Shown here piece after piece: positions 20,220 to 53,573 of a DNA stretch of 64,000 nucleotides. A program made the position numbers and the translations under genes. Source of the DNA: Mesostigma viride (taxonomy: Eukaryota > Streptophyta > Mesostigmatophyceae > Mesostigmatales > Mesostigmataceae). The stretch spans positions 2,009,844 through 2,073,843 of the forward strand of contig RPFO01000079.1 of the NCBI GenBank assembly GCA_009746045.1, read 5' to 3'. A model generated the notes under the pieces. That model was not told where the DNA came from. It saw only the letters and a list, made by a program, of their open reading frames with translations, and did no database searches. Every line of letters starts with the position of its first letter. The stretch's first letter is position 1.

Positions 20220-20460
20220 CATCGGATCACTGGCACCTAATCTACAGGTGGTAGATTACCAACCAAGACCCGTCGCGGTAATTTACTCTGTCGGTAATGT
20301 ACTACCAAAGATGTGCAGTCGTAACGTTACTCTTACTTACGGCTAGTAAAATTACTACGTAGGATGATAGGTAGTAATGATTACGGCGTTGGATCTCACG
20401 CCTCGTATCTAGGTAGTAAGATAAGACCTCGTAATTTACGCCTCGGATCCTTTTTACTAC
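20220..20460. repeat. GTAATTTACG-type degenerate repeat, inverted relative to 1.9 kb
   Basis: Repeated GTAATTTAC and CTCGTA motifs. The last 35 bases (20426-20460) are the exact inverse of 1881-1915. It ends abruptly where the LINE reverse-transcriptase frame begins. Confidence 0.65.
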
Positions 20461-20478
20461 CCTCGGACGAAAAGTATA

Positions 20479-20721
20479 GTGTTCCGTCGTGGTCGTAACA
20501 CTGTCATGGCTGTGTTTGTCGCGCGCCGGTTGATGGAGGAGGTGCGTCGACTTCCCCCTGACAGTTTGCCGCTGGTCTTCATTTTTGTTGACTATATCAA
20601 GGCCTTTGACACGGTTCTCTGGGAGGCTCTTTGGGCCATCCTAGCTCTGGATCGGGTACCACCTGCGTTTATTGCTGCCATTCGCCGTCTGTATGAGGGC
20701 TCACAGGCAGTAGTGCGGACT
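20479..20721 (+). pseudogene. LINE reverse transcriptase, 5' part (split by transposon)
   Basis: The frame reads FRRGRNTVMAVFVARRLMEE, matching the GFRxGRST motif of LINE reverse transcriptases. FVDYIKAFDTVLW follows, which is palm motif A with a catalytic aspartate. It stops being reverse transcriptase at T20721, where a terminal inverted repeat begins. The missing continuation (motif B onward) lies at 29861, 9.1 kb downstream. Dropping the transposon and one duplicated T keeps the frame. The upstream side is truncated at about 20470 by the GTAATTTACG repeat, so the endonuclease domain is absent. Confidence 0.85.
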
Positions 20722-20772
20722 GGGGTGGTTTTACCGGATTAGGATACATTTGCACGGCTTCAAATGTATCCT
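20722..20772. repeat. Left terminal inverted repeat and subterminal hairpin
   Basis: 30-bp inverted repeat (20722-20751), overlapped by a 12-base-arm hairpin AGGATACATTTG / CAAATGTATCCT with an 8-base loop (20741-20772). Confidence 0.85.
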
Positions 20773-21540
20773 AAATGCACCATTGGCAAACATGGTTTCT
20801 GGACATGGTCGATATCATTAATATGTTTGGCAAGCATAATATGATCATGCTTGCCAAAGATGTTGTCTCTTTTCATATTTCACACATATATTATCGGCCT
20901 CGGCGTGCCATGCTTCCACGTTTGTTGTCTCTTTTCATATATTGTGAATATGATCAATAAAATTCCAAACATGACCATGTTGGAGACTTCAAGTGGAGCA
21001 TCATGATTACTGTTTTCACTATTACGTAACCCATGGTTCATGTTAACATGGCATAATGAGCAATCCTATTGACCCCATGACTAATGGTGAAGTTAATAAA
21101 GTTACATCGTGGCACGTCACTATAGCATCAAGTTGCATCATTGTGCATAAAGTAGTTTAGCACTGAGTTGGCATGCCAACACCAGGTACACTAAATAAAT
21201 TAAAACCAGAATTGATAAACAACCCAGTATCCAAATACAGTATCCATATATATGCAGGTCGTACTACAGGTACAGCCACGGCTGCCACGCGGCTTCTGCA
21301 GCGATCACGCTCTTTCTCCTAGACAATTGCTCTACTGGTCCCTACAGGTCGGTCGACTTGGACCATGATGCGTCAAGAACAGTTAATTGACCGACTTAAA
21401 CAAGATGTTTGTCTACATGCAGCTGTCTGCACCTAACTAACGCGAAACCGCGTGCTACCAAATATAGGGGCAAATGCATGAGTAACACATGTCAACGCAC
21501 AACCGGTGGAAATCACGCGATACCAACCGCGGCAACAGTG
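20773..21540. other. AT-rich left interior of the TIR element, no gene
   Basis: AT-rich sequence with reiterated TTGTTGTCTCTTTTCATAT and GCATAATATGATCATGCTTG palindromic pieces near 20825-20945. No credible coding frame. Confidence 0.4.
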
Positions 21541-22020
21541 GTGTGAACATAGCGGGCACTGACATGCAAAAAAGCACCAGCAGCGGCATCAGTAGCAAAT
21601 TGTAGTAGCGGAACAATAGCCACTACATCAATGCAACAACACATCAGCCCAGCAACACAGCAGCAGCATGACCGTAGCACAGCAGCAGCACAACTGTAGC
21701 ACATCAACACGGCCGCATAGCAGGAGCACAAGTCAGCGCAGCAGCAACTTAGTATGCCGATTCCTGAATTTCCTATCAGTGGACTATAGTCCATTGATAG
21801 GAAATTCACTAATAGGCAGTACTAGCTCAGCAGCACGGCAGCAATGCAGCAGTGCATCAACACAGCAGCACGACAGCAATACATCAGCGGCACGGCAGCA
21901 ATGCAGCAACACATCAGCACAATAGCACAGCAGCAGTACGGCAGCAATGCAGCAGCAATAGCATGGCAGCACAGCAGCAGCAGCAGCACATGAGCAGCTC
22001 AATGACAACAACGCTGCTTG
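21541..22020. repeat. GCA/CAG-rich interrupted microsatellite
   Basis: AGCAGCAC and GCAGCAATGCAGCA reiterations dominate, with a local hairpin (CCTATCAGTGGACTATAG / CTATAGTCCATTGATAGG near 21770-21801). This is presumably the 3' flank of the minus-strand gene. Confidence 0.65.
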
Positions 22021-22024
22021 CGCT

Positions 22025-24566
22025 TCAGCAGTCGTCGTCGTCGTCATCGTCATCGGCAAGGATGAGCGCTCGCTTCCGACGCCGGGAGGCGCCTGCGTTG
22101 TTGTTCTCCGCCACAACGTCGCTGGGTGGAACCATCTCGCGCAATCGAGCCTCGGCCAGGGTGATATCCGGCGCTTGCAACGCAGGGACGACCACACCGG
22201 GGCACCCGCAGATCTGTGCCTCCAGCTCGTGGAGAGGCACGCAAGAAACCGCGTCCTCCTCCCAACGGGCACCCCAGTACATGGCTACCATGTCGTTTTG
22301 CGTGTCGACAACAGCGACACGACCATGGTACCTGCCGTCCCGGCTTTCGGTGCGACCGTCCGCGGATGTCACACGCTCCGACGCCCAATGACACACGACT
22401 TGCCCTACGAGGTTGCGGCTGCCACTCTTGACCTGCAGCGTTACGCCTTCCCAGCATGCCTTCGCCATGCCGACGATGCCCTTCGAGCATTCAGCATCTT
22501 GCCACTTCACGACCGGGTGTTCCGCGTCATAGGGCACCTCCTTCAGCGCCTTTAGGCACTCCTTGGTGAGCTTTTCGTTCGCACCCAAGGAGACTCCATG
22601 GGGCGGCTGACCTCGCTTGCCCACCACTTGTGTCAAGACGAGGTCTGAGGCGGTGATGATCACCGTGTGCGCCGCAGTGGTTGGCGGATGGGGCCATTGC
22701 GCAATGTCTGTATTCCACGGGTGCCACGTGTCATGCAAATGCTTAGCGCGGTATACAAAGAGCTCAATAGAAGGTTGGCCGCCATCCTCCTTCGCAACCA
22801 CCTCCTTGATGATGCCAACGAGGACTGGAGTCCACGTGAGCTTCGAGTTGCAGAGAATACCAGCTGAAGGGTGCCAGTATAGAACAGCGGAGCCTTTCTC
22901 AACGCCTTGCATGCGCTTCAAGTAAGCGACCTTGGCTGCCATGGCCCTGTCTTCTGCCGCCCATTCCTGCTGTGTGTGGCCATCATGACGAACTCGGTCT
23001 ACCAGCGGGGTGACGCGCACCGCCTCTGCGTCGACCAACGCCATGAAGTGCTCTTCTTGCGTCGGTGGTGGTTCAGGCGCTGCATCGTGCTCACGCAGGG
23101 CGGAGATGTCCGCGCGAGATGGCCACGGCAAAGGGCGCCACTCCTCAGGCACCTCCTCAGGGGCATGTGGGACTTGACTTGCGAAAAAAGGCCTTGTTTG
23201 GCTTGATGGTGTCGGGCGGAAAGTACCACTGCCAGATGCCATGGGGCAACTTCTCGACCCTTGTTTTGATCGACTCCAGCTCCTTCCCCAGAAACTCCAT
23301 GTTCAATGGTGCGAAGGCTGGGGTGTCCTGCAACATCGGAATGCGGTCTGGATCCACAAGTCGGACGCCAAACAGCGGCCGCCCCTCCGCATCAAACCTG
23401 TATGGCTGTGTCATCGCCTTCCCGCACCGTGGCGCGCCTTCCTGTCGAGTCCCCGCGGGCTGCCACGGCGTCTTTTGGGACTCCGTGGTCCGGTAGGACA
23501 ACCAGGTCTCTGTGTTGCCCTGTACCTGGAAGAAGACGGCGTGGTGCACCTTCATTGAGCGACCGCGTTTTTCAGGCACCGGCTGTGCCGCTCCGCCGCT
23601 CCGCCGCTCCGCCGCCCGCCGGCTGCGCCGCCGGCCCGCCGCGCGCCGGCTGCCCCGCCCCGTAGCCCGTCGACAGGCTGCCCCGCCCCGCCGCATGCCA
23701 GCTGCGCCGGCCCGCCGCCCACGCGCGCCGGCAGCGCCGTTGGCCCCCCGCGCCGACGGCCCTGCCCCGCCGCCCGTTGACAGCCCCGCCCCGCCGCATG
23801 CCAGCTGCGCCGGCCCGCCGCCCATGCGCGCCGGCAGCGCCGCTGGCCCCCCGCGCGCCGACGGCCCTGCCCCGCCGCCCGTCGACTGCCCCGCCCCGCC
23901 GCCCGTCGACAGCCCTGCCCCGCCGCATGCAGGCTGCGCCGCCGCTGCCACCTCGCTGCGCGCTGGCTGCGCCACCTCGCCGCCCGCCGACGGCGCCGCC
24001 CCGCCGCGCACCGGCTGCCCCGCCCCGCCGCCTGTCGACTGCCCCGCCCCGCCGCATGCCAGCTGCGCCGGCCCGCCGCCCACGCGCGCCGGCAGCGCCG
24101 CTGGCCCCCCGCGCGCTGACGGCCCTGCCCCGCCGCCCGTCGACTGCCCCGCCCCGCCGCCCGTCGACAGCCCCGACCCACCGCATGCCAGGTGCGCCGG
24201 CCCGCCGCCCGCGCGCGCCGGCAGCGCCGCTGGCCCCCCGCGCGCCGACGGCCCTGCCCCGCCGCCCGTCAACAGCCCTGCCCCGACGCCCGTCGACAGC
24301 CCCGCCCCGCCGCATGCCAGCTGCGCCGGCCCGCTGCCCACGCGCGCCGGCAGCGCCGCTGGCCCTGCCCCGCCGCCCGTCGACTGCCCCGCCCCGCCGC
24401 CCGTCGACAGCCCTGCCCCGCCGCATGCCAGGTGCGCCGGCCCGCCGCCCGCGCGCACCGGCAGCGCCGCTGGCCCCCCGCGCGCCGACGGCCCTGCCCC
24501 GCCGCCCGTCGACAGCCCCGCCCCGCCGCATGCCAGCTGCGCCGGCCGGCCGCCCATGCGCGCCAT
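22025..24566 (-). CDS. Element-borne gene of unknown function, large 3' exon (frameshifted)
   Basis: Two overlapping minus-strand frames probably form one exon: 24566-23157 (469 codons) and 23242-22025 (405 codons). Losing one base from the A6 run at 23184-23189 joins them. The upstream part is a long Gly/Ala/Arg low-complexity tract made by GC-rich ~105-bp repeats, then unique sequence (FFQVQGNTETWLSYRTTESQ, LPHGIWQWYFPPDT). The downstream part is non-repetitive (VLYWHPSAGILCNSKLTWTP, RYHGRVAVVDTQNDMVAMYW) and ends in an acidic DDDDDDDD tail after a basic RRRKR. The HGRVAVVD..MVAMYW stretch is reminiscent of a small Tudor- or BAH-like barrel, but that is a guess. Codon third positions are strongly GC. 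No transposase signature was found. Confidence 0.5.
23600..24560. repeat. GC-rich ~105-bp tandem repeat within coding region
   Basis: About eight imperfect units built from CCGCATGCCAGCTGCGCCGG, GCCCACGCGCGCCGGCAGCG and CCCCGCCGCCCGTCGAC. All frames are open on both strands. Segment C (from 43816) starts within this repeat. Confidence 0.85.
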
Positions 24567-25720
24567 GCGCTTCGCAGGTCCATTGGGATCATGAGGCCTG
24601 CGCAGAATCTCACCTCGGAGGCCCGTGCTACTTCTAGTAAGATGCTTGCATTTTCAATGCGTCACCTATATGCAGGCATAGAGGGTGGTACATGGCGCTA
24701 GACTCATCAAGGGATAGGAGCCATGCCCTCAGCAATTACTCACCTCCTGGCCCTTGCTGTTGCGGTCTCGGATGAAGATGATGGTCTACACGCCGCCGCA
24801 TGCAAACAAGGAATGAGAGACAAAGCCGTGCGAGGCCAATATGGGCACAGTGAGAGAAACAAGTCGACGCGAACCTACATCACGAGTGTCAGCGAAGGGG
24901 ACCCATGGGAGAAGTCTCCCTCCCATGGTATCATTCACGGACACACGCAGCGGCCATGGGAACAGCCAAAACAGCAGGTTCACACACGCAAGGGCAACGA
25001 CCTGCAGTGCCTGACCAGCATGTCGGTCAGTTGTGATTGGCAAGGCAGAGCCACACACACCAGGTACACGCTGCATGGGCAGGGAAGACGCTCTTACATG
25101 AGAAAAAGCGAGGAAACGTGCGCGAGAAGGATATTAAGAGCGATCCGCGCTAGAAGGATGCTACAATAGCATCATATATTCAAGAATTAGCAAAGAAAGA
25201 TGTAGAAAAGAGACAAAAGAAAGAAATACGAGAGAAAGCAAAGACAGGGAGCTGCCAAACAGGGCAGACAAAAGGTTACGAGCGGCAAGAGTTGTGAACG
25301 CTGCACTTGATTGCTTTCTCTGACTTGTCAACTGCGAAGAGTGACTGACTTACCTCTCTGGAAATGGTATGCTCAGCATCCCATGGTAATGAAATGGTGA
25401 GCTATGCTGTCAGACATGCCTATATAACATAGCTACCCTAGGGTCCTAATACAAAACTAGAAATCAAACCATACCGTGAGTTTCCCGGCTCGCACGGCCT
25501 CCTCCCTTTGTGCCGACGCCTGCAAACACAACGGGCCGTGGAGGAGGGTGGAAAGGTGGGCAAGTGTGGAGGAGTTTGGGGGGGACCGGGTTGAGCAGCG
25601 GTGGGGGAAAGATGTGCCGGTCATGATGTTGTCAACTACAGCTGTTGTATCGTGATTCACCTTCAATAAGTCTACTGTTCTACATCCGGTGGTGGATGGA
25701 CACAAGCAATAAAGGCCCCG
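24567..25720 (-). other. Likely upstream exons and introns of the minus-strand element gene
   Basis: Several GT-AG-bounded minus-strand pieces look like short exons. One is about 25525-25480 (ASAQREEAVRAGKLT after TGTTTGCAG). A second is about 25407-25355 (HSSPFHYHGMLSIPFPE, donor AGAG|GTAAGT). A third is about 24788-24747 (TIIFIRDRNSKGQE, donor GAG|GTGAGT). They lie directly upstream of the large exon ending at 22025. Exon limits are by eye and the initiation codon was not located; a Met at 25705 is one option. The 148-codon plus-strand frame at 24723-25169 is not supported. Confidence 0.35.
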
Positions 25721-26035
25721 CCCACAACTCAGATTTCTTTAGAAAATCTACTGATCTACATTCGATGGCGCCTTCACAGAAGCAGGAAACTCCGCCCACC
25801 GGTCAAATGTGACGCCCAACAAAGCCCCAACTTATTTCTTCAAGAAGTATACTGTTTTACATCCGGTAGTGCTTGGACAGAAGCAATATATAATAATATA
25901 AAGCCCGCCCACAAATCGGATTTCTTTACGAAAAACCTGTTTTACATTCGATGGGGTCTTGACAGATTCAAGCAGCAATACTCGTTTCTACCTGCGTGCG
26001 ACTGCAGCGGCCGAGTGCTGCAACTTGCCTTCACG
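25721..26035. repeat. Three diverged ~75-bp repeats
   Basis: Three copies of a block with CTACTGTTCTACATCCGGTGG, GGACAGAAGCA and CCGCCCACAAATC lie between 25660 and 25960. This may be the promoter side of the minus-strand gene. No gene seen. Confidence 0.5.
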
Positions 26036-27265
26036 TCCCAGTCTTCACGTGTCAGTCCTGGTCTTCACGTCTTCACGTCTTCACGTCTTCACGTCTTCAC
26101 GTCTTCACGTCTTCACGTCTTCACGACTTCACCTGAACTTGCGGCGTATCGTATCTTTGATACCTTGCATGCACGTCTTCACGTCTTCACGTCTTCACCG
26201 CGTCTTCACCTGTCTTCACCACGTCTTCACGTCTTCGCGTCTTCACGTCTTCACGGCTTCACCTGAACACCTGAACTTCACCTGAACTTGCCGTATCGTG
26301 TCTTCACGTCTTCACGTCTTCACGTCTTCACGTCTTCACCGCGTCTTCACCTGTCTTCACCACGTCTTCACGGCTTCACGGCTTCACGTCTTCACGGCTT
26401 CACCTGAACACCTGAACTTCACCTGAACTTGCCGTATCGTGTCTTCACGTCTTCACGTCTTCACGTCTTCACGTCTTCACGTCTTCACCGCGTCTTCACC
26501 TGTCTTCACCACGTCTTCACGTCTTCGCGTCTTCACGTCTTCACGGCTTCACCTGAACACCTGAACTTCACCTGAACTTGCCGTATCGTGTCTTCACGTC
26601 TTCACGTCTTCACGTCTTCACGTCTTCACCGCGTCTTCACCTGTCTTCACCACGTCTTCACGGCTTCACGGCTTCACGTCTTCACGGCTTCACCTGAACA
26701 CCTGAACTTCACCTGAACTTGCCGTATCGTGTCTTCACGTCTTCACGTCTTCACGTCTTCACGTCTTCACGTCTTCACCGCGTCTTCACCTGTCTTCACC
26801 ACGTCTTCACGGCTTCACGGCTTCACGTCTTCACGGCTTCACCTGAACACCTGAACTTCACCTGAACTTGCCGTATCGTGTCTTCACGTCTTCACGTCTT
26901 CACGTCTTCACGTCTTCACGTCTTCACCGCGTCTTCACCTGTCTTCACCACGTCTTCACGGCCTCACGGCTTCACGTCTTCACGGCTTCACCTGAACACC
27001 TGAACTTCACCTGAACTTGCCGTATCGTGTCTTCACGTCTTCACGTCTTCACGTCTTCACGTCTTCACGTCTTCACCGCGTCTTCACCTGTCTTCACCAC
27101 GTCTTCACGGCTTCACGGCTTCACGTCTTCACGGCTTCACCTGAACACCTGAACTTCACCTGAACTTGCCGTATCGTGTCTTCACGTCTTCACGTCTTCA
27201 CGTCTTCACGTCTTCACCGCGTCTTCACCTGTCTTCACCACGTCTTCACGGCTTCACCTGAACAC
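26036..27265. repeat. GTCTTCAC octamer minisatellite with ~150-bp higher-order unit
   Basis: The octamer GTCTTCAC is repeated in blocks, separated about every 140-150 bases by ACACCTGAACTTCACC and CTTGCCGTATCGTG. About seven higher-order units are present. Copies: 36345-37265 (noisy) and 45900-47130. Confidence 0.95.
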
Positions 27266-27438
27266 CTGAACTTTGCGTATCGTATCTTTCATACATTGCA
27301 TCATTTGCATGCCTTGGAGCTGCACGTCTTCAAGCAGTGTCACCCAGTTCCCGCTTGATTCAAATGCACTTCGCGCTTGAATTCGTGACTTCGCCCCGCT
27401 CAAGGTGGAAAGAATGATGGGCACTAGCCACGGGAACT

Positions 27439-27786
27439 ATGCCCGATGCTGATAGCCGAAGCGATGACATGGACGAATTGATTGATTTGTGTTATGCCGG
27501 GGACGATTGTAGAAAATGGGTGCTAGGAAAGAAATCTGGTGCCATGAAAGTAGATTTTTTGGCCGGTGCAAACCACCAATGCGCCGGCCGATGTGGCAAG
27601 GTCCTGCACGGCAGCCAGAGCGCACCCAGCCAGAGCGTACCCAGCCGCTGCCGCCGCCGACCCCCGTACTGGTGGGCGTGGAACAGACGATGAGAGAGAT
27701 GCAACGAGCTATGGAGAACCAAAGCAAGAAGGTTGAAGAGCTTGGTTTGCAGCTGCGTCAAGAGGTGCAGAAACAAGTGGTCCAGC

Positions 27787-27825
<39 letters not shown>

Positions 27826-27862
27826 TGCAGCAGCAACTGCAGCAGCAACTGCAGCAACAACT

Positions 27863-27925
<63 letters not shown>

Positions 27926-29339
27926 CTTCAGTTCCCGCAGGCAGCGTCGGCAATGTCGCAGTTTCCACAGGCATTGTCGGCACTGCAGCAGTTTTCGCAG
28001 GGACCGTCGGCAGCAGAGCAGTTCCCGCAGGGATCATCGGTGGTGCAGCAGTTCTTTGTGAGTCATTCGTGTAGTGTTGAGTGGGTGGGGTGGGGGGTGT
28101 GTGTGGGGGGGGGGTGTAGGGGGGTTTGACTGTGTGACTGCGTGGCTGCTTGGCTGGAAAGGAGGGTGCGTGGCTGTGTGGCTGCGTGGCTGCGCTGCTG
28201 CGTGGCTGCGTGGCTGCGTGGCTGCGTGGCTGCGTGGCTGCGCTGCTGCGTGGCTGCGTGGCTGCGTGGCTGTGTGGCTGCGTGGCTGCGCTGCTGCGTG
28301 GCTGCGTGGCTGCGCTGCTGCGTGGCTGCGTGGCTGGAAAGGAGGGTGCGTGGCTGTGTGGCTGCGTGGCTGCGCTGCTGCGTGGCTGCGTGGCTGCTTG
28401 GCTGGAAAGGAGGGTGCGTGGCTGTGTGGCTGCGTGGCTGCGCTGCTGCGTGGCTGCGTGGCTGCGTGGCTGCGTGGCTGCGTGGCTGCGTGGCTGCGTG
28501 GCTGCGTGGCTGCGTGGCTGCGTGGCTGGAAAGGAGGGTGCGTGGCTGTGTGGCTGCGTGGCTGCGCTGCTGCGTGGCTGCGTGGCTGCGTGGCTGCGCT
28601 GCTGCGTGGCTGCGTGGCTGCGTGGCTGCGTGGCTGTGTGGCTGCGTGGCTGCGCTGCTGCGTGGCTGCGTGGCTGCGTGGCTGCTTGGCTGGAAAGGAG
28701 GGTGCGTGGCTGTGTGGCTGCGTGGCTGCGCTGCTGCGTGGCTGCGTGGCTGCGTGGCTGGAAAGGAGGGTGCGTGGCTGTGTGGCTGCGTGGCTGCGCT
28801 GCTGCGTGGCTGCGTGGCTGCGTGGCTGCGTGGCTGCTTGGCTGGAAAGGAGGGTGCGTGGCTGTGTGGCTGCGTGTAGCTGCGCTGCTGCGTGGCTGCG
28901 TGGCTGCGTGGCTGCGTGGCTGCGTGGCTGCGTGGCTGCGTGGCTGGAAAGGAGGGTGCGTGGCTGTGTGGCTGCGTGGCTGCGCTGCTGCGTGGCTGCG
29001 TGGCTGCGTGGCTGCGTGGCTGGCTGGGGGGGGGGGGGGTGCCGGGTGCGTGGATGCGTGGATGTGTGGCTGGGTGGGTGCGTCACTGCGTGGCTGGCTG
29101 GCTCTGTGGCTGCGTGGGCGGCTGGATGGCCGGGTCAGCGTGGCTTCGTGTTCAATGGGATGCTAATATGTTGTTGCCTTTGGATGCCACAGTTCATGGA
29201 TTCTTTTGTTCACATGCAGGTGCTGCCGTCTTCCCCATCGACGTCGTCAAGACCGATGTCGCCAAGAAGGATGATGCAATCACTCTCGGCCATGTTTAAC
29301 TCATGTGGGCCTTCATGGCCATACGGGAAATATTATTGA
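27439..29339 (+). CDS. Candidate Gln-rich coiled-coil gene with minisatellite intron
   Basis: The first frame starts at ATG 27439 (MPDADSRSDDMDELIDLCYA). The next frame, overlapping from about 27580, reads GVEQTMREMQRAMENQSKKV, then VQKQVVQLEQQ, and enters a CAG-encoded poly-Gln run. This looks like a coiled coil. After the run a third frame has a regular ten-residue repeat (QFPQALSALQ, QFSQGPSAAE, QFPQGSSVVQ). A canonical donor follows at 28057 (TTCTTT|GTGAGT). An acceptor at about 29219 (CACATGCAG|GTG) opens an in-phase last exon VLPSSPSTSSRPM... to the stop at 29339. The 1.16-kb intron is almost entirely minisatellite. Two frame changes, one near the CAG run, mean sequence error, missed introns or decay. 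An alternative last-exon frame (FPIDVVKTDVAKKDDAITL, stop 29299) is also attractive. Function unknown. Confidence 0.4.
27793..27925 (+). repeat. (CAG)n microsatellite
   Basis: About 130 bases of CAG with a few CAACTG interruptions, translated as poly-Gln in the candidate gene. The segment B copy (37773-37907) has indels that shift the frame. Confidence 0.95.
28140..29040. repeat. TGCGTGGC octamer minisatellite with higher-order units
   Basis: Octamers TGCGTGGC and TGCGCTGC recur in blocks separated by GCTGGAAAGGAGGGTGCG. Every frame is open on both strands, so the long AWLRGCVA and Thr/Gln/Arg/Ser-rich frames are repeat translations. It fills the proposed intron of the Gln-rich gene. Confidence 0.95.
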
Positions 29340-29810
29340 ATCAGTTCTTTGACACTGAGTTGGCACTACGCAACACCTTTGATGCACATGAGTGCAGGGC
29401 GCATGTGTTGAAACCATGCAACCATGGCGATCCCTCAAAAAGTTTGGTTATGTAATAAGTGACACAATTATTCCGGACGTATGATGGCCCAACGTCCTGT
29501 AAGGTTGAGTTGTCTTGGAGGAGGAGCGTGATGACCGCGGAAGCCGCGTGGGTGTCTGTAGTGCTATATCTTGAAGATGTACGGTCTTGGAAGAGTTATG
29601 GTCTTGGAATCATATAATAATGAACTTGGAATAAAGTTGCGGGCAGCCTTCAATTGGCATATGTTGTCTCATTGATGTTGTCTCATTGCGTTAATGGGTC
29701 AATTGTCTTAGTTTATATAATGTATATCTTGGGAAACTCATTGCTTCAATAAAATGCATGCTAGGCGCAATCAACCCCCACAAACACATCTGAAAACTGC
29801 ACAGTGCATC
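29340..29810. other. 3' flank of the Gln-rich gene, no other gene
   Basis: AT-richer sequence with AATAAA at about 29632 and 29750 and a short direct repeat TGTTGTCTCATTG. This is plausibly the 3' UTR and right interior of the TIR element. Confidence 0.5.
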
Positions 29811-29859
29811 AAATGTATCCTAGACAAAAAAATGTATCCTAATCCGGTAAAACCACCCC
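29811..29859. repeat. Right terminal inverted repeat of the 9.1-kb element
   Basis: 29830-29859 is the exact inverse of 20722-20751 and is preceded by a second AAATGTATCCTA copy (29811-29822). Confidence 0.85.
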
Positions 29860-29860
29860 T

Positions 29861-30949
29861 GCGGAGGGCACCACTCCACCATTCCCCCTTCACCACGGGG
29901 TGTGGCAAGGTTGTGTCCTGTCCCCATACCTGTTCATTATTGTCGTGGATCACGTCATGCGCCGGGCACGTGCGCGCTTTACTGCTCTTAAGGGGTTCGA
30001 GCCAGGCTTGGACATCCTTAACGTGAAAGAGCACGGCGGGGTTAGACCTGGTTACCGCCTTGCCGACCTGATTTATGCGGATGATACCACCCTCATCGAG
30101 AGCCCCGAGCACATTCAGACCTGGCTGGACTGCCTGGGCCTGGAGGCACGGGCGGTGGGGCTGGAGATTAGTGTCAAAACTGAGGCGATGGTGATAGGGG
30201 CATCCAGTAAACCACCGCTGCCGCGCCTGCTCGACGGGACGGAGGTCCCGTTCCGCGACCGCTTCAAGCTGTTGGGGAGCTGGCTTCCTGACACCGCCGA
30301 CGATGTGGACACCCGCATCGGCCTTGCCTGGGCCAAGCTCCGTTCGCTCACACCCTACTGGCGCTCGAAGGGCCTGGACGGGCACCGCAAGCGCATGCTC
30401 TTCAAGGTCCTCGTCCTCACGGTGCTCACGTATGGCGCCGAGGCGTGGACCCTCCCACCCAAACTGGCAGCTCGGCTCGACGGCACAGTTTACAGGATGC
30501 TCCGGCAGGTCCTTAATGTAGGTTTTTCCGAGCGTCCGTCATCAGAGTCTTTGTATCATGGCATGCCTCGTGTTTCGGACGAGATTAGGCAGCGTAGGAT
30601 AGCATTTGTAGGACACCTTGCCCGCACCAGCCAGGTCGACACCACCCTTGGTCTGGCCGGCCCCCAGCGGCTTGGACAGCCAGGGCGGCACATTCTGACC
30701 TGGCCTGGCCCCAAGGACGTTCCCAAAAGGGTAGGGAATTAACCTGTCACCAACTACGTTCAGATGTTGCTGGACGACCTAGTGGTCCCAGCCCAGTTTG
30801 AGCACCGCATCCACTCTCTCTCCCGTCTTTGGACTGCCATGCAGGACAAGACGCGGTGGAAGAAGATTGTCAAGGCGCACACGCCCGACCCTGTGGGCAA
30901 GCCACCTCCTCCCAAGCGGAGGAGGCGTTTTGATGAGCAGTGCAGTTAG
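29861..30949 (+). pseudogene. LINE reverse transcriptase, 3' part and ORF2 C terminus
   Basis: The frame continues the reverse transcriptase begun at 20479. It holds motif B (GVWQGCVLSPYLF), motif C with the catalytic aspartates (IYADDTTLIES), motif D (SVKTEAMVIG) and motif E (FKLLGSWL), then the thumb (LTYGAEAWTLPPKLAARLDG). The frame is open to a single TAA at 30740-30742 and resumes in the same frame (NYVQMLLDDLVVPAQFEHRI) to 30949, ending in a basic KRRRRFDEQCS. ORF2 is therefore damaged here by only two lesions, the 9.1-kb insertion and one nonsense codon. Non-LTR elements use this protein for target-primed reverse transcription. Confidence 0.9.
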
Positions 30950-36290: not shown

Positions 36291-37417
36291 TTATTCTAAG
36301 GCTGTTGAAGTGCTGATTGACGTTTATTAGATTCGGAAAGGATTGCTTGCACGTCTTCACGGCTTCACCTGCACCTGAACACCTGAACTTCACCTGAACT
36401 TGCCGTATCGTTGTCTCACGTCTTCACGTCTTCACGTCTTCACGTCTTCACGTTCTTCACGCGTCTTCACCTGTCCTTCACCACGTCTTTCACGTTCTTC
36501 GCGTCTTCACGTCTTCACGGCTTCACCTGAACACCTGAACTTCACCTGAACTTGCCGGTATCGTGTCTTCACGGTCTTCACGTCTTCACCGTCTTCACGT
36601 CTTCACCGCGTCTTCACCTGTCTTCACCACGTCTTCACGGCTTCACGGCTTCACTCTTCACGGTCTTCACCTGAACACCTGAACGTTCACCTGAAACTTG
36701 CCGTATCGTGTCTTCACGTCTTCACGTTCTTCACGTCTCACGTCTTCACGCTTCACCGCTCTTCACCTGTCTTCACCACGTCTTCACGTTCACGGCTTCA
36801 CGTCTTCACGGCTTCACCTGAACACCTGAACTTCACCTGAACTTGCCGTATCGTGTCTTCACGTCTTCACGTCTTCACGTCTTCACGTCTTCACGTCTTC
36901 ACCGCGTCTTCACCTGTCTTCACCACGTCTTCACGGCCTCACGGCTTCACGTCTTCACGGCTTCACCTGAACACCTGAACTTCACCTGAAACTTGCCGTA
37001 TCGTGTCTTTCACGTCTTCACGTCTTCACGTCTTCACGTCTTCACGTCTTCACCGCGTCTTCACCTGTCTTCACCACGTCTTCACGGCTTCACGGCTTTC
37101 ACGTCTTCACGGCTTCACCTGAACACCTGAACTTCACCTGAACTTGCCGTATCGTGTCTTCACGGTCTTCACGTCTTCACGTCTTCACGTCTTCACCGCG
37201 TCTTCACCTGTCTTCACCACGTCTTCACGGCTTCACCTGAACACCTGAACTTTGCGTATCGTATCTTTCATACATTGCATCATTTGCATGCCTTGGAGCT
37301 GCACGTCTTCAAGCAGTGCTACCCAGTTCCCGCTTGATTCAAATGCACTTCGCGCTTGAATTCGTGACTTCGCCCCGCTCAAGGTGGAAAGAATGATGGG
37401 CACTAGCCACGGGAACT

Positions 37418-37768
37418 ATGCCCGATGCTGATAGCCGAAGCGATGACATGGACGAATTGATTGATTTGTGTTATGCCGGGGACGATTGTAGAAAATGGGT
37501 GCTAGGAAAGAAATCTGGTGCCATGAAAGTAGATTTTTTGGCCGGTGCAAACCACCAATGCGCCGGCCGATTGTTGGCAAGGTCCTGCACGGCAGCCAGA
37601 GCGCACCCAGCCAGAGCGTACCCAGCCGCTGCCGCCGCCGACCCCCGTACTGGTGGGCGTTGAACAGACGATGAGAGAGATTGCAACGAGCTATGGAGAA
37701 CCAAAGCAAGAAGTTGAAGAGCTTGGTTTGCAGCTGGCGTCAAGAGGTGCAGAAACAAGTGGTCCAGC

Positions 37769-37804
<36 letters not shown>

Positions 37805-37868
37805 CAACTGCAGCAGCAACTGCGCAGCAAACTGCAGCAACAACTGCAGCAGCAGCAGCAGCAGCAGC

Positions 37869-37907
<39 letters not shown>

Positions 37908-39285
37908 CTTCAGTTCCCGCAGGCAGCGTCGGCAATGTCGCAGTTTCCACAGGCATTGTCGGCACTGCAGCAGTTTTCGCAGGGACCGTCGGCAGCAGAG
38001 CAGTTCCCGCAGGATCATCGGTGGTGCAGCAGTTCTTTGTGAGTCATTCGTGTAGTGTTGAGTGGGTGGGGTGCCAGGGGGAGTGTGTGTGGGGGGGTGT
38101 AGGGGGGTTGACTGTGACTGCGTGGCTGCTGGCTGGAAAGGAGGTGCGTGGCTGTGTGGCTGCGTGGCTTGCGCTGCCTGCGTGGCTGCGTGGCTGCGTG
38201 GCTGCTGCTGGTGGCTGCGCTGCTGGTGCTGCGTGGCTGCGTGGCTGTGTGGCTGCGTGGCTGCGCTGCTGCGTGGCTGCTGGCTGCGCTGCGCGTGGTG
38301 GCTGGAAAGGAGGGTGCGTGGCTGTGTGGCTGCGTGGCTGCCGCTGCTGCGTTGGCTGCGTGGCTGCTGGCTGGAAGGAGGGTGCGTGGCTGTGTGGCTG
38401 CGTGGCTGCGTGCTGCGTGGGCTGCGTTGGTGCTGCTGCGTGGCTGCGTGGCGCTGGCTGTGCTGGCGTGGCTGCGAGGGCTGCGTTGCTCGTGTGGCTG
38501 CGTGGCTCGCTGCGCTGCGTGGCTGCGTGCTGCGCTGCTGCGGGCTGCCGGCTGCGTGGCTGCGTGGCTGCTTGTGCTGCTGTGGCTGCGCTGCTTGTCG
38601 TGGCTGCGTGCTGCGTCTGCGCTGCTCTCGCTGGGAAAGCGCATGGTGCGCTGGCTGTGTGGCTGCGTGGCTGCGCTGCTGCGTGGCTGCGTGGCTTGCG
38701 TGGCTGGAAAGGAGGGTGCGTGTGCTGTGCTGGCTGCGTGGCTGGCGTGCTGCTGTGGCTGCGCGTGGCTGCGTGGCTGCGTGGCTGCTTGGCTGGAAAG
38801 GAGGGTGCGTGGCTGTGTGGCTGCCGTTGTAGCTGCGCTTGCTGCGTGGCTGCGTGGCTCGCGTGGCTTGCGTGGCTGCGTGGCTGCGTGGCTGGTAGCT
38901 GGAGAGGGTGCGTGGCTGTGTGGCGGCGTGGCTTGCGCTGCTGCGTGGCTGCGTGGCTGCGTGGCTGCGTGGCTGGTGGGGGGGTGCCGGTGCGCTGGAT
39001 GCGTGGATGTGTGGCTGGGTGGGTGCGTCACTGCGTGGCTGGCTGGCTCTGTGGCTGCGTGGGCGGCTGGATGGCCGGGTCAGCGTGGCCTCGTGTTCAA
39101 TGGGATGCTTAATATGTTGTTGCCTTTGGATGCCACAGTTCATGGATCTTTTGTTCACATGCAGGTGCTTGCCGTCTTCCCCATCGACGTCGTCAAGACC
39201 GATGTCGCCAAGAAGGATGATGCAATCACTCTCGGCCATGTTTAACTCATGTGGGCCTTCATGGCCATACGGGAAATATTATTGA
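37418..39285 (+). pseudogene. Gln-rich gene, segment B copy
   Basis: Same gene as 27439-29339 with extra frame breaks (for example an inserted T after 37569 and changes in the CAG run). The QFPQ decamer repeat is visible here in an open frame with poly-Ala ahead of it. The TGCGTGGC minisatellite is badly indel-ridden. Confidence 0.5.
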
Positions 39286-39776
39286 ATCAGTTCTTTGACA
39301 CTGAGTTGGCACTACGCAACACCTTTGATGCACATGAGTGCAGGCGCATGTTGTTGAAACCATGCAACCATGGCGATCCCTCAAAAAGTTTGGTTATGTA
39401 ATAAGTGACACAATTATTCCGGACTTATTGATGGCCAACGTCCTGTAAGGTTGAGTTGTCTTGGAGGAGGAGCGTGATGACCGCGGAAGCCGCGTGGGTG
39501 TCTGTAGTGCTATATCTTGAAGATGTACGGTCTTGGAAGAGTTATGGTCTTGGAATCATATAATAATGAACTTGGAATAAAGTTGCGGGCAGCCTTCAAT
39601 TGGCATATGTTGTCTCATTGATGTTGTCTCATTGCGTTAATGGGTCAATTGTCTTAGTTTATATAATGTATATCTTGGGAAATCATTGCTTCAATAAAAT
39701 GCATGCTAGGCGCAATCAACCCCCACAAACACATCTGGAAAACTGCACAGTGCATCAAATGTATTCCTAGACAAAA

Positions 39777-40907
39777 AAATGTATCCTAATCCGGTAAAAC
39801 CACCCCTGCGGAGGGCACCACTCCACCATTCCCCCTTCACCACGGGTGTGGCAAGGTTGTGTCCGTTCCCCATACCTGTTCATTATTGTCGTGGATCACG
39901 TCATGCGCCGGGCACGTGCGCGCTTTTACTGCTCTTAAGGGGTTCGAGCCAGGCTTGGACATCCTTAACGTGAAAGAGCACGGCGGGGTTAGACCTGGTT
40001 ACCGCCTTGCCGACCTGATTTATGCGGATGATACCACCCTCATCGAGAGCCCCGAGCACATTCAGACCTGGCTGGACTGCCTGGGCCTGGAGGCACGGGC
40101 GGTGGGGCTGGAGATTAGTGTCAAAACTGAGGCGATTGGTGATAGGGGCATCCAGTAAACCACCGCTGCCGCGCCTGCTCGACGGGACGGAGGTCCCGTT
40201 CCGCGACCGCTTCAAGCTGTTGGGAGCTGGCTTCCTGACACCGCCGACGATGGACACCCGCATCGGCCTTGCCTGGCCAAGCTCCGTTCGCTCACACCCT
40301 ACTGGCGCTCGAAGGGCCTGGACGGGCACCGCAAGCGCATGCTCTTCAAGGTCCTCGTCCTCACGGTGCTCACGTATGGCGCCGAGGCGTGGACCCTCCC
40401 ACCCAAACTGGCAGCTCGGCTCGACGGCACAGTTTACAGGATGCTCCGGCAGGTCCTTAATGTAGGTTTTTCGAGCGTCCGTCATCAGAGTCTTTGTATC
40501 ATGGCATGCCTCGTGTTTCGGACGAGATTAGGCAGCGTAGGATAGCATTTGTAGGACACCTTGCCCGCACCAGCCAGGTCGACACCACCCTTGGTCTGGC
40601 CGGCCCCCAGCGGCTTGGACAGCCAGGGCGGCACATTCTGACCTGGCCTGGCCCCAAGGACGTTCCCAAAAGGGTAGGGAATTAACCTGTCACCAACTAC
40701 GTTCAGATGTTGCTGGACGACCTAGTGGTCCCAGCCCAGTTTGAGCACCGCATCCACTCTCTCTCCCGTCTTTGGACTGCCATGCAGGACAAGACGCGGT
40801 GGAAGAAGATTGTCAAGGCGCACACGCCCGACCCTGTGGGCAAGCCACCTCCTCCCAAGCGGAGGAGGCGTTTTGATGAGCAGTTGCAGTTAGGATTTTC
40901 TAGATAG
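39777..40907 (+). pseudogene. Right TIR and LINE RT 3' part, segment B copy
   Basis: The 30-bp right TIR is at 39777-39806. The reverse transcriptase follows (IYADDTTLIES at about 40018-40050, LTYGAEAWTLPPKLAARLDG from about 40369) with at least five single-base frame breaks relative to 29861-30949. Confidence 0.8.
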
Positions 40908-41309
40908 AGTTAGGACAGTTCGATCACGCGGCTTCCTCCATCCATCATGAAATATGTGCTACATGACCTCCCCACGGAGGCATGTTATAATTTAATTTAA
41001 TTTAATTTAATCGCCAACTTACACCTACAGTCATCCGCAAAAGTTCTCCTTTCCGGGGGATGATGCAAGCCTTTCGGATTTGGTACTAGATAAATCACTC
41101 GAGATCTGTGTGTAGGAGTACTACACACTGTGCCACTCGAGACTTGTTCAGTCTCGAAACGTGAGACGGGCTGAACACGGCTGGATCCTTCTTTATTAGA
41201 TGGGGGCGTAGCCGGTTACTATCGAAATCAGCCGTTATAGTGCCTGTCGTAGCGGGCATGTACAAGCCACGGTCTAACTATTCTACACTACTGCTGCTGT
41301 ATTCGGACC

Positions 41310-42610
41310 CTAGGCTGGGCGTCTGGGGTCGCTGGGGCCGCGGTGGTCGAGGGGGTCGCGTGCCAGGGCTTGTGGCCGACGTAGATGGCCGCCCCCTTCC
41401 CAGCTGTCCACCGGCTGGCCCGCCTTGGTCTGCCGGAGCTGGAGGTAGGGTCGGCCATAGCTCCCGTCGCCGTTGTTGCTGCGCCATGCAGGGTCAAGTT
41501 CGTCGTCCACGGTGAAGGGAGTGTTCTCGAGCCGCTTGCGCGTCTGAGAAACGAAATCTTGTCCGATGGGCTCTTGAGGATCGATGAGAAGAAGCGGAGG
41601 CGCCCAGTGCCTTAATTACCCCGCGCGCGGGGGAGGCGGTGGGCGGTCAGCTTAATCTCACCATGCAAGAAGCCCATGCGTGCAAGGATTTTGCTCTCAA
41701 ACGCACGTTGCAAGCTTCTCGGAATTCTCACCTTCCTCCATGTCTTGACGATGGCGTTGAGGCTGCGCTTGGCGAGCTCGGCCTCCTCGCGGAGGTCAAG
41801 CGTCTGCCGCTGGAGCTGGGCTGCGACGGCGGAGGTGTGGAGGTGGTGTGCTGCTTGAGCATGTCCGCCCAGGTCGTGATGGGAGGAGGCTGCATCGCCG
41901 GCCAGGCCAGCAGGGGCTGGCTTGGCGGCAATGTCCTTCACCGCCTGGGCGGTGAGGCCTGCGGTGTTTTGCAGGACCTCGATAGCGATGGCATTGTCCT
42001 TAAGACGCTGGTCGATTGTCGCGGAGCTGGCGGTGATGGCGTCGGAGGTGGGGGTGTGACGGTGGAGGAGGCGAGGATCCGAGGGTGGAGGTGGCGGTTG
42101 AAGATGGTGGAGAGGAGGGGAAGCTCGGCAGCCAGCGTGCCGCCCATGGCTGCCATGCACATCTGCAGCGATGGGGGCCACGTGCTGCTCGAGGCCTCCT
42201 TAAGGAGTGAGCGATGGAGGATTCGGTTAAGGTGGTGCATGGTGAAGGGGCCACCCTTGCAGGAAGTAGCTTAGGATGTATATGATAGGCCATATGCCCC
42301 CCTCTCAGGGGCTATGTGCTACATATACTCCCAACGGAGTTATGTTACAATTCAATTCAATGGTGAGGGGCTTGAGGGGCCAGAGCTCCTCGATGGGAGC
42401 GGCCAAGGAGGAGAAAAGAGCGAATTGCTGAAGGTGGGGGCGGCGGGCGTTGAGGACGTCCTTGTCGAAATAGCGCCTCTGGACGAATTAAGGCATTGAT
42501 GAGGGCAGACCTTGGTGGAAAGCTGGCTTGCACAGTTCTATAAGAGAGGCGTGCGTCCCGAAAAATGGAATGGATGGTGTAAGCTATCTAGGTCCTAGTT
42601 ACAGGGGTGT
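41310..42610 (-). pseudogene. LINE ORF1 pseudogene, segment B copy
   Basis: Indel-bearing duplicate of 31370-32640, including the LINE 3'-end insertion (about 42252-42360). Confidence 0.65.
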
Positions 42611-42759
42611 GGGCACCGCGGCCCGAATCGCTATGAATGCCATACGCGGTCACACGCCGGAGCCCCCACAGACTTCGGGGTGGTCTCCTTCATCACTACT
42701 TCTTGCCATCTATCCTTGCGCACCATCTAAGTAAGTAAGTAAGTACTTGCGTGTCATGC

Positions 42760-43592
42760 GCAAAGGCATGCCACGGAGTACTATGCTAATCTCATTAGAA
42801 AATAATTACACAAAAGTTTAAACAAATATCGTCTGCATTCATCCCCCAATGACCGTTTAAGCACTAGATGGGATGTAATCCTCATCCGAGCTGTCCTCTA
42901 CTGTAATGGCAGACGAGGCGGTAGTGTAGCGGCTATCCTCAGGACCAATAACCTCCACCTGCGGACTTCTACCCTGGCTAGCAACGGGCCGCGGGCCGTG
43001 GGGAGAAAACAGGAGCATACCCTCGGGGAGGTGCCTTATCGCAGATGGCAGCCCATTTCTCCTTGTCAATCATGCGGGCGCGAGTACGGATAGTCCCAGA
43101 AGCCACCATCTGCCTCCGTTATTACAGACAAACGAGGAGGCTGCCCGGGTGTGAGCCCGTCACGTCTAGTGTAGCACATGTCCATGCCGAGTCTACACGA
43201 AAAGTCCACGGGTGGCGGCCCTGCCGCGCGCGGCCTGGGGCACGCCAGGTGAGGACATAACGCCCAGGCTGGGCGGGCTTTGGTGCCAGCTATAGTCTAT
43301 CTGATGTATCTACCTGATCTGTGCGGGGCCAGGTGCCCGGCTAGGGCCCAGGCGCCTGTGCCTAAGAATGGTGGGAAACATAGGGAAAATCAGCCGTACA
43401 AATCCTCATTACTAATGTGCAAACCAAAAGGGGATGTTAAGGGCCTTGCGCAGAATCTTGGTGACGGTGCCGTCGAGTCGTTGCTCCAGCTCCTGCGTCA
43501 GTGTCCAGGTCTCGGCGCCGTAGGTCAGGATCGTCAGAATGACGACCTTGAAGAGGTCACGCTTGACGATCCGGGGTAGGGCCGGGGTTGCT

Positions 43593-43626
<34 letters not shown>

Positions 43627-43668
43627 TAACAATAAATAATAATAATAACAACAACAGCAATAATAAAA

Positions 43669-43719
<51 letters not shown>

Positions 43720-43740
43720 TAATAATAATAATATAAGCAC
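42760..43740 (-). pseudogene. Second-lineage LINE ORF2 and AAT array, segment B copy
   Basis: Duplicate of 32770-33780: the minus frame 43600-43412 encodes LFKVVILTILTYGAETWTLT and the SDEDYIP end lies near 42870. The AAT tract contains extra substitutions and indels. Confidence 0.65.
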
Positions 43741-43815
43741 GTGACCATGCGTCACGTGGTGCCAATACAGAGTAAAGGAACCTTCAACCCTACTATATAT
43801 TTTAAAAAAATATAA

Positions 43816-44479
43816 TTAGCTGCACCCGCGCTGGCTGCGCCACCTCGCCGCCCGCCGACGGCGCCGCCCCGCCGCGCACCGGCTGCCCCGCCCCGCCGCC
43901 TGTCGACTGCCCCGCCCCGCCGCATGCCAGCTGCGCCGGCCCGCCGCCCACGCGCGCCGGCAGCGCCGCTGGCCCCCCGCGCGCTGACGGCCCTGCCCCG
44001 CCGCCCGTCGACTGCCCCGCCCCGCCGCCCGTCGACAGCCCCGACCCACCGCATGCCAGGTGCGCCGGCCCGCCGCCCGCGCGCGCCGGCAGCGCCGCTG
44101 GCCCCCGCGCGCCGACGGCCCTGCCCCGCCGCCCGTCAACAGCCCTGCCCCGACGCCCGTCGACAGCCCCGCCCCGCCGCATGCCAGCTGCGCCGGCCCG
44201 CTGCCCACGCGCGCGGCAGCGCCGCTGGCCCTGCCCCGCCGCCCGTCGACTGCCCCGCCCCGCCGCCCGTCGACAGCCCTGCCCCGCCGCATGCCAGGTG
44301 CGCCGGCCCGCCGCCCGCGCGCACCGGCAGCGCCGCTGGCCCCCCGCGCGCCGACGGCCCTGCCCCGCCGCCCGTCGACAGCCCCGCCCCGCCGCATGCC
44401 AGCTGCGCCGGCCGGCCGCCCATGCGCGCCATGCGCTTCGCAGGTCCATTGGGATCATGAGGCCTGCGCAGAATCTCAC
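43816..44479 (-). pseudogene. Truncated copy of the element gene's repeat region
   Basis: Only the Gly/Ala/Arg-coding GC-rich repeat and the sequence just upstream of the large exon are present. The unique coding part (22025-23940 equivalent) is missing at the segment junction. Confidence 0.6.
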
Positions 44480-45900
44480 CTCGGAGGCCCGTGCTACTTC
44501 TAGTAAGATGCTTGCATTTTCAATGCGTCACCTATATGCAGGCATAGAGGGTGGTACATGGCGCTAGACTCATCAAGGGATAGGAGCCATGCCCTCAGCA
44601 ATTACTCACCTCCTGGCCCTTGCTGTTGCGGTCTCGGATGAAGATGATGGTCTACACGCCGCCGCATGCAAACAAGGAATGAGAGACAAAGCCGTGCGAG
44701 GCCAATATGGGCACAGTGAGAGAAACAAGTCGACGCGAACCTACATCACGAGTGTCAGCGAAGGGGACCCATGGGAGAAGTCTCCCTCCCATGGTATCAT
44801 TCACGGACACACGCAGCGGCCATGGGAACAGCCAAAACAGCAGGTTCACACACGCAAGGGCAACGACCTGCAGTGCCTGACCAGCATGTCGGTCAGTTGT
44901 GATTGGCAAGGCAGAGCCACACACACCAGGTACACGCTGCATGGGCAGGGAAGACGCTCTTACATGAGAAAAAGCGAGGAAACGTGCGCGAGAAGGATAT
45001 TAAGAGCGATCCGCGCTAGAAGGATGCTACAATAGCATCATATATTCAAGAATTAGCAAAGAAAGATGTAGAAAAGAGACAAAAGAAAGAAATACGAGAG
45101 AAAGCAAAGACAGGGAGCTGCCAAACAGGGCAGACAAAAGGTTACGAGCGGCAAGAGTTGTGAACGCTGCACTTGATTGCTTTCTCTGACTTGTCAACTG
45201 CGAAGAGTGACTGACTTACCTCTCTGGAAATGGTATGCTCAGCATCCCATGGTAATGAAATGGTGAGCTATGCTGTCAGACATGCCTATATAACATAGCT
45301 ACCCTAGGGTCCTAATACAAAACTAGAAATCAAACCATACCGTGAGTTTCCCGGCTCGCACGGCCTCCTCCCTTTGTGCCGACGCCTGCAAACACAACGG
45401 GCCGTGGAGGAGGGTGGAAAGGTGGGCAAGTGTGGAGGAGTTTGGGGGGACCGGGTTGAGCAGCGGTGGGGGAAAGATGTGCCGGTCATGATGTTGTCAA
45501 CTACAGCTGTTGTATCGTGATTCACCTTCAATAAGTCTACTGTTCTACATCCGGTGGTGGATGGACACAAGCAATAAAGGCCCCGCCCACAACTCAGATT
45601 TCTTTAGAAAATCTACTGATCTACATTCGATGGCGCCTTCACAGAAGCAGGAAACTCCGCCCACCGGTCAAATGTGACGCCCAACAAAGCCCCAACTTAT
45701 TTCTTCAAGAAGTATACTGTTTTACATCCGGTAGTGCTTGGACAGAAGCAATATATAATAATATAAAGCCCGCCCACAAATCGGATTTCTTTACGAAAAA
45801 CCTGTTTTACATTCGATGGGGTCTTGACAGATTCAAGCAGCAATACTCGTTTCTACCTGCGTGCGACTGCAGCGGCCGAGTGCTGCAACTTGCCTTCACG
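44480..45900 (-). other. Upstream-exon region of the element gene, segment C copy
   Basis: Same candidate minus-strand exons as 24600-25720 (TIIFIRDRNSKGQE near 44654-44613; the AQREEAVRAGKLT equivalent near 45390-45345), cut off from their downstream exon. Confidence 0.3.
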
Positions 45901-47130: not shown

Positions 47131-47303
47131 CTGAACTTTGCGTATCGTATCTTTCATACATTGCATCATTTGCATGCCTTGGAGCTGCACGTCTTCAAGC
47201 AGTGTCACCCAGTTCCCGCTTGATTCAAATGCACTTCGCGCTTGAATTCGTGACTTCGCCCCGCTCAAGGTGGAAAGAATGATGGGCACTAGCCACGGGA
47301 ACT

Positions 47304-47651
47304 ATGCCCGATGCTGATAGCCGAAGCGATGACATGGACGAATTGATTGATTTGTGTTATGCCGGGGACGATTGTAGAAAATGGGTGCTAGGAAAGAAAT
47401 CTGGTGCCATGAAAGTAGATTTTTTGGCCGGTGCAAACCACCAATGCGCCGGCCGATGTGGCAAGGTCCTGCACGGCAGCCAGAGCGCACCCAGCCAGAG
47501 CGTACCCAGCCGCTGCCGCCGCCGACCCCCGTACTGGTGGGCGTGGAACAGACGATGAGAGAGATGCAACGAGCTATGGAGAACCAAAGCAAGAAGGTTG
47601 AAGAGCTTGGTTTGCAGCTGCGTCAAGAGGTGCAGAAACAAGTGGTCCAGC

Positions 47652-47690
<39 letters not shown>

Positions 47691-47727
47691 TGCAGCAGCA
47701 ACTGCAGCAGCAACTGCAGCAACAACT

Positions 47728-47790
<63 letters not shown>

Positions 47791-52510: not shown

Positions 52511-52639
52511 GGTCCTAGTTACAGGGGTGTGGGCACCGCGGCCCGAATCGCTATGAATGCCATACGCGGTCACACGCGGAGCCCCCACAGACTTCGGGGT
52601 GGTCTCCTTCATCACTACTTCTTGCCATCTATCCTTGCG

Positions 52640-53508: not shown

Positions 53509-53520
<12 letters not shown>
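52640..53520 (-). pseudogene. Second-lineage LINE ORF2, segment C copy
   Basis: Same as 32770-33650 (LTYGAETWTLTQELEQRLDG; stop at 53211; SDEDYIPI end at 52783). The adjoining AAT array has one more triplet than in segment A. Confidence 0.8.
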
Positions 53521-53542
<22 letters not shown>

Positions 53543-53573
53543 TAACAATAATAATAATAATAACAACAACAGC

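Follow-up and report, generated by a model that had tools for sequence, protein, structure and literature searches.

A non-autonomous DNA transposon inserted in a LINE reverse transcriptase of Mesostigma viride, and DUF7869 as the putative transposase core of its family

Introduction

What is the 9.1-kb block that interrupts the reverse transcriptase of a long interspersed nuclear element (LINE) in the alga Mesostigma viride, and which enzyme moves it? The block lies in a stretch of 64,000 nucleotides of contig RPFO01000079.1 (the window; positions are those of the window unless another locus is named). A sequence-only reading had described it as a DNA transposon with perfect 30-bp terminal inverted repeats (TIRs), a tiny target duplication and two spliced genes of unknown cargo. 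Here we place the element, with a probability of about 0.87, as a non-autonomous member, shortened by internal deletion, of a very recently amplified cut-and-paste family, for which a DUF7869 protein encoded by full-length relatives of the type found at locus L030 would be the putative transposase, acting in trans. A domain of unknown function thereby gains a testable function. The window copy and its sister offer a model of autonomous and non-autonomous partners whose ends, duplications and empty sites are exactly placed, and the transposon may still be active in an alga that is among the earliest-diverging streptophytes.

Results and discussion

The ends of the element and the target-site duplication

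The two ends of the block are exact inverses over 30 of 30 bases (20722-20751 against 29830-29859, spaced 9,078 bp apart), so that the perfect match described earlier stands. Its length, however, does not: when the window was compared with 17 other copies, the fixed end was GGGTGG...CCACCC, 29 bp long, and the adjoining outer base was variable. Because the outermost G/C pair varies between copies whereas the rest is constant, the TIR is 29 bp and not 30, and the target-site duplication (TSD) is an exact CTG, the last base of which is the outermost base of the 30-bp repeat. The 1-2 bp duplication proposed at first, or 3 bp with a mismatch, was therefore replaced. A 1-bp duplication follows from assuming a 30-bp TIR at the same junction and was overturned by comparing copies, and a duplication of 8 bp was rejected because it would lose the reverse transcriptase frame.

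A perfect 3-bp duplication is present in all 18 two-ended copies, window included: TAG four times, CTG, GTG, ATG, TGG and TAC twice each, and TTG, AAG, GAG and CGC once each. No 4-bp agreement was seen in any of the 18, and in the control, in which a left flank was paired with the right flank of another copy, the bases agreed in 22 of 306 cases. The excess of G as the third base is probably a sampling bias, since the matches were ranked by likeness to the window's left end. These counts bear on the idea that a tyrosine recombinase or another mechanism had inserted the element with a duplication of 0-2 bp, which is what one shared junction base, left by a 30-bp TIR, would suggest; once copy comparison shifts the boundary by one base, though, 18 of 18 copies show exact 3-bp duplications of differing sequence, and such an insertion is scarcely credible.

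The extra subterminal motif copies reported at both ends were recovered as well. With up to one mismatch, the motif AGGATACATTTG lies at 20761-20772 and 29810-29821 and, within or overlapping the TIRs, at 20741-20752 and 29829-29840; at that tolerance the window holds seven matches, against 0.30 expected from shuffles. Between the copies at 20741-20752 and 20761-20772, a stem of 12 bp with a loop of 8 nt could arise. Farther inside, the inverted similarity between 21285-21389 and 29465-29551 has a local score of 51, and none of 100 shuffles exceeded 27.

The interrupted LINE and its empty sites

The flanks, which had been read as reverse transcriptase, are the two halves of one such enzyme; the RVT_1 match is clear on the right (E 3.5e-8), and that on the left (E 0.0025) falls under the curated cut-off. 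Empty sites, for which a genome search had been suggested, were found at the DNA level: the flanks joined with a single CTG matched along all 252 of 252 bp at 40 of 40 scored LINE places (1,555 candidates), with the top score at eight of them. At the protein level, 24 LINE relatives were retrieved (E <=1e-20), ten of them covering the junction, and five of these ten were compared in detail. The exact junction was the best fit for P0003 (98% identical, uninterrupted, with one additional residue beside the junction) and for P0010 (in a shifted reading frame, with a codon straddling the junction). A junction shorter by 6 bases scored equal to the exact one for P0011 and P0016, and 2 above it for P0008. 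Because the family is multicopy, the 3-bp duplications are perfect and the empty sites are seen in DNA, the clean insertion proposed from the sequence holds, and a real DNA-transposon insertion into the LINE reverse transcriptase is strongly supported.

P0003, the closest LINE protein, bears the label Mesvir1, presumably another assembly of Mesostigma viride. Its conserved reverse transcriptase stretches contain single extra residues at three points, one of which is beside the insertion site; these are probably a gene-model artefact. Immediately upstream of the interrupted LINE there is a tandem array (17855-20195) of 10.7 copies of a 218-bp unit, 99% alike. A 456-aa frame on the minus strand (377-1747), without a Pfam match and with related DNA at 31419-32096, presumably encodes a LINE ORF1-like protein.

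Copy number and age

In the genome searched (439.9 Mb in 2,243 contigs), the 30-base TIR pattern with up to two mismatches was found 255 times in forward and 269 times in reverse orientation, and its reversed control not once in either; other copies with the same TIR pair, the search for which had also been suggested, thus exist. We estimate about 260 two-ended copies, assembly duplicates included. The left end (201 bp) was scored at 40 places of 335 candidates, one being the window's own, and at the other 39 the match starts no more than 4 bases from the TIR start. Twenty of these 39 were fetched for comparison. They differ from the window by 0-0.40% substitutions over about 5 kb outside satellites, three of them by none, and the 1,680 bp of the gene called here the tail gene are the same as in the window in 18 of the 20. 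By this sequence likeness, the spread of the window's subfamily is very recent; the dating is limited to that subfamily, because the copies were selected for likeness to the window.

A full-length sister and the origin of the two short genes

No Pfam family was found at E 0.1 in a six-frame scan of the whole window element, which agrees with the earlier remark that no transposase inside could be named. The single-frame scan of its open reading frames to E 1 gave matches under the cut-off only, the best being Snu56_snRNP (E 0.002) in a Gln-rich frame. Elsewhere in the genome some TIR pairs stand about 11.3 kb apart. One such sister (L030 with L031), 11,313 bp long, carries the TIR at 29/29 on each side with a CCG duplication and contains two stretches that are absent from the window copy. 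Both of its genes are long uninterrupted frames, and the splicing read into the window's genes was accordingly not established. The minus-strand frame of L030 has 1,258 aa, and the core at its start matches DUF7869 (PF25273, E 1.1e-16, above the cut-off).

The DUF7869 core was found neither in the window nor in any of the 20 fetched copies, all of which have also lost some 1.07 kb from the second gene, a deletion whose edges share CGGCA. Since the same loss of the core, the same loss in the second gene and the same 1,098-bp replacement occur in the window and the 20 copies, the window belongs to a single non-autonomous subfamily, for which one deleted founder copy is the simplest origin. The 1,098-bp stretch (24564-25661) is perhaps captured host DNA. 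On contig C2, core and tail stand in phase within a 1,730-aa open frame, and for this reason we read the minus-strand gene of the window as the C-terminal tail of the putative transposase. What had been taken for unknown cargo is thus a truncated DUF7869 gene and a truncated second gene of the sister.

The tail gene has a frame break that is common to all 21 copies compared, so an error of the window alone was rejected as its cause; open frames through the tail region are present at other genomic copies. Among 6,511 candidates its sole protein matches were P0001, a seven-member cluster (99% identity, with 57% of the query covered), and P0002 (81% identity, with 44% covered), both labelled jgi/Mesvir1. 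For the second gene no homologue was detected at E <=0.1 among the 7,982 candidates with the most words in common, which is weak evidence because of the restricted candidate set and the Gln-rich query. One could still suppose that the window copy is itself autonomous and that a new type of transposase is encoded by its two short genes, as its multiple copies, near-identical between loci, might suggest, but the genes are truncated versions of those of the sister, the tail is broken in 21 of 21 copies and the core is missing, which makes that supposition very improbable.

Scans of IMG/VR revealed no relative of the TIR, the tail gene or the core, and sequence searches of the PDB gave nothing useful. 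A 22-base match to the TIR in a bacterial metagenome-assembled genome was dismissed as chance, being isolated within ordinary bacterial sequence.

DUF7869 as the putative transposase core

The 640-aa core is complete, 99-100% identical and stop-free at 69 of 69 scored genomic places (431 candidates). DUF7869 matched at 150 scored genomic places (275 candidates) and in 0 of 14 control genomes, and the matches fall into several sets, the members of which have equal scores and frames of similar length. We also delimited a second family at C1469:635976-647698 (L044-L047), 11,723 bp long, with an outermost inverted repeat of 31 bp and TGG on both sides. Its core is 37% identical to that of L030 (DUF7869 E 2.3e-14), and the tails of the two are related (E 6e-12); the tail of the second family has a Tudor match (PF21743, E 4.8e-4, 20.3 bits against a cut-off of 27.2). 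The second protein of L030 matches only a PHD finger, sub-threshold (E 0.023). Besides the 31-bp outer TIRs, the ends of the second family carry tandem repeats with a unit of about 173 bp, inverted between the two ends.

Three aspartates of the L030 core (L030:4662-6581, minus strand), D387, D482 and D521, which stand there in the contexts DKLDHAK, LQLDGGSENRN and GHTHADPDQ, are shared with the second family; their spacings are 95 and 39 residues in L030 and 93 and 39 in the second family. We infer that the DUF7869 core would be an RNase H-fold DDE/D transposase making 3-bp duplications. In Pfam and NCBIfam no transposase model matched the L030 core at E <=1, and besides DUF7869 there was one weak non-transposase match in each; DUF7869 was not named in the literature searched. 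Might DUF7869 be a passenger gene instead, the TIRs being moved by another enzyme? Its activity is deduced rather than seen, and a second long gene lies within the same element; against this, the core is free of stops at every scored place, it recurs in a second family with TIRs of its own and a 3-bp TSD, and it has D/D/D residues at DDE-like spacing, so that we hold a passenger to be improbable.

For the putative DUF7869 transposase, the following mechanism is proposed. A full member of the L030 type has, between its 29-bp TIRs, two genes in divergent orientation together with extended subterminal and satellite regions. Its putative transposase is built of the DUF7869 core, a repetitive Gly/Ala/Pro linker and the C-terminal tail, and the full protein would bind the TIRs and the subterminal repeats, cut both ends and excise the element, whose ends would then be joined to target strands staggered by 3 bp. 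The same protein would also mobilise deleted copies in trans through their identical TIRs. Given the very recent amplification, at least one DUF7869 family of M. viride may still be active.

Several points weigh against this proposal. The candidate catalytic residues are drawn from two sequences only, and neither enzyme activity nor an excision footprint nor a new insertion was observed. Both predicted structures were poor, with a mean predicted local distance difference test (pLDDT) score of about 35. The TSD of the second family comes from one copy, and when parts of the two second genes were compared, 465 aa with 206 aa, no relation was detected. In addition, the fetched stretch showed no right end for three of the 20 copies (L010, L012 and L026), which were excluded from the TSD comparison. 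Choosing copies by likeness to the window's left end also biases the sample towards that subfamily and towards TSDs with a final G.

Assembly repeats and other features of the window

The same right end, with the same LINE flank, recurs at 39777-39806 and at 49696-49725. Aligned to 29400-33858, the indel-rich copy departs by 1 mismatch and 85 indel bases, and the third copy by 0 and 7. From this pattern, 36345-43818 is a probable long-read gap fill and 43827-56217 a probable unmerged contig overlap; a true tandem duplication, formally still admissible, appears the less probable origin. Because the extra right ends look like raw-read gap fill between overlapping contig ends, they were not counted as insertions, and three independent right ends in the window were rejected, these being repeats of the same LINE-containing block. 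The available part of the description of the NIES-296 assembly, the probable source of the window, gives 441.8 Mb, PacBio reads with Canu, gap filling with PBJelly and 66% repeats (Liang et al. 2019, PMC6947507). The window shows that an assembly is able to repeat such a locus and so to fake extra copies, genes and transposable elements being repeated too.

The inverted duplication of 34343-36273 and 60407-62342, about 96.8% identical, contains a gene whose product has a chlorophyll a/b-binding domain (Pfam E 1.3e-12), and a third copy (54216-56146) is part of the assembly repeat. The only match of a 657-aa open frame (7618-9591) is to DUF4371 (E 0.068); the frame looks like a hAT-type transposase. 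Very long perfect simple arrays are also present: GATG x75 (13500-13798), TGGA x200 (14173-14974) and CGTGTG x109 (57905-58558). Rfam and tRNA scans of the 64-kb window gave no match.

Table 1. Position, strand and supporting evidence of the features delimited in the window.
Feature	Position	Strand	Evidence or remark
Host LINE reverse transcriptase, left flank	20425..20722	+	RVT_1 model 41-110, E 0.0025; empty sites
Left target-site duplication, CTG	20720..20722	+	Comparison of copies
Inserted element, 9,136 bp, non-autonomous	20723..29858	.	TIR/TSD limits as in 17 other copies
Left TIR, 29 bp, GGGTGGTTTTACCGGATTAGGATACATTT	20723..20751	+	Inverted match, genome scan, copies
Subterminal inverted copy of AGGATACATTTG	20761..20772	-	Motif search, up to 1 mismatch
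Left arm, subterminal inverted similarity beyond TIR	21285..21389	+	Partner 29465-29551
Remnant of putative transposase gene, C-terminal tail	22025..23570	-	Frame broken in homopolymer near 23184-23189
GC-rich minisatellite, Gly/Ala/Pro-rich linker of putative transposase frame	23604..24563	-	
1,098-bp stretch in position of sister's putative transposase core	24564..25661	.	In all 20 fetched copies
CTTCACGT-type minisatellite, between two divergent genes	26074..27257	.	
Second-gene remnant	27439..28061	+	About 1.07 kb of sister's gene absent at about 27609
8-bp tandem array, TGCGTGGC	28167..29117	.	
Right arm, subterminal inverted similarity	29465..29551	-	Partner 21285-21389
Right-end subterminal copy of AGGATACATTTG	29810..29821	-	Motif search, up to 1 mismatch
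Right TIR, 29 bp	29830..29858	-	Inverted match, genome scan, copies
Right target-site duplication, CTG	29859..29861	+	Comparison of copies
Host LINE reverse transcriptase, right flank	29859..30742	+	RVT_1 model 113-193, E 3.5e-8; empty sites
Indel-rich repeat of 26373-33858	36345..43826	+	Right TIR duplicate at 39777-39806
Near-exact repeat of 23959-36344	43827..56217	+	0 mismatches, 7 gaps; right TIR at 49696-49725

Comparison with known transposon systems

By its copies, ends, duplications and empty sites the element is a TIR DNA transposon (on the superfamilies in general, see PMC5718144). On the tested features it is not a hAT, piggyBac, Tc1/mariner, PIF/Harbinger, CACTA or KDZ (Kyakuja-Dileera-Zisupton) element, the models searched being those of Pfam and NCBIfam. 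Tentatively, and at somewhat less than even odds, DUF7869 may be the catalytic core of an unnamed eukaryotic cut-and-paste superfamily with 3-bp TSDs, TIRs of about 30 bp, two divergent genes and partly chromatin-reading domains (Tudor, perhaps PHD, both below the Pfam cut-off). There is an even chance that the DUF7869 elements are instead a divergent branch of a superfamily that already has a name, be it Zator, the CACTA group or another. The third acid follows at 39 residues, as is usual among DDE/D enzymes, and this would suit such a branch. Zator, grouped with bacterial ISAzo13, suits it too, as it makes 3-bp duplications with a DDE-type enzyme according to the available part of PMC10045372. 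The Mesostigma element shares that duplication length, but its core has no ISAzo13-type match at E <=1 in Pfam or NCBIfam, and a remote relation is possible; nor did the core match any other named transposase there, and the element has no 5'-CACTA end.

The sequence-only reading was right that hAT (8-bp duplications), piggyBac (TTAA) and Tc1/mariner (TA) do not fit, the Mesostigma duplications being instead 3 bp and of varied sequence. The likeness to other groups goes further. PIF/Harbinger elements make 3-bp duplications, have two genes and begin with GGG, all of which is true of the Mesostigma element as well; however, TTA/TAA occurs in 0 of 19 Mesostigma duplications, a sample biased to G at the third base, and the L030 core has no Harbinger-type transposase match at E <=1. 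CACTA/EnSpm elements make duplications of about 3 bp without a strict consensus, carry repeated subterminal motifs and give rise to non-autonomous deletion derivatives, and the Mesostigma family likewise shows 3-bp duplications, subterminal motif copies and deleted copies, but its ends are GGGTGG rather than CACTA and no CACTA-type transposase was matched at E <=1. From KDZ elements 8-bp duplications are expected. PF18758 was unmatched in both the window element and the L030 core, and the L030 gene is a single open frame; what L030 has in common with KDZ is a large, in its case putative, transposase, and KDZ elements are reported from algae too (PMC9297572).

The relation between the two kinds of copy resembles that of Ac/Ds-type deletion derivatives: the window copy is to L030 as Ds is to Ac, the transposase and the duplication length being different. 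Ds is a deletion derivative of Ac that keeps the same ends, has lost the core and carries filler DNA.

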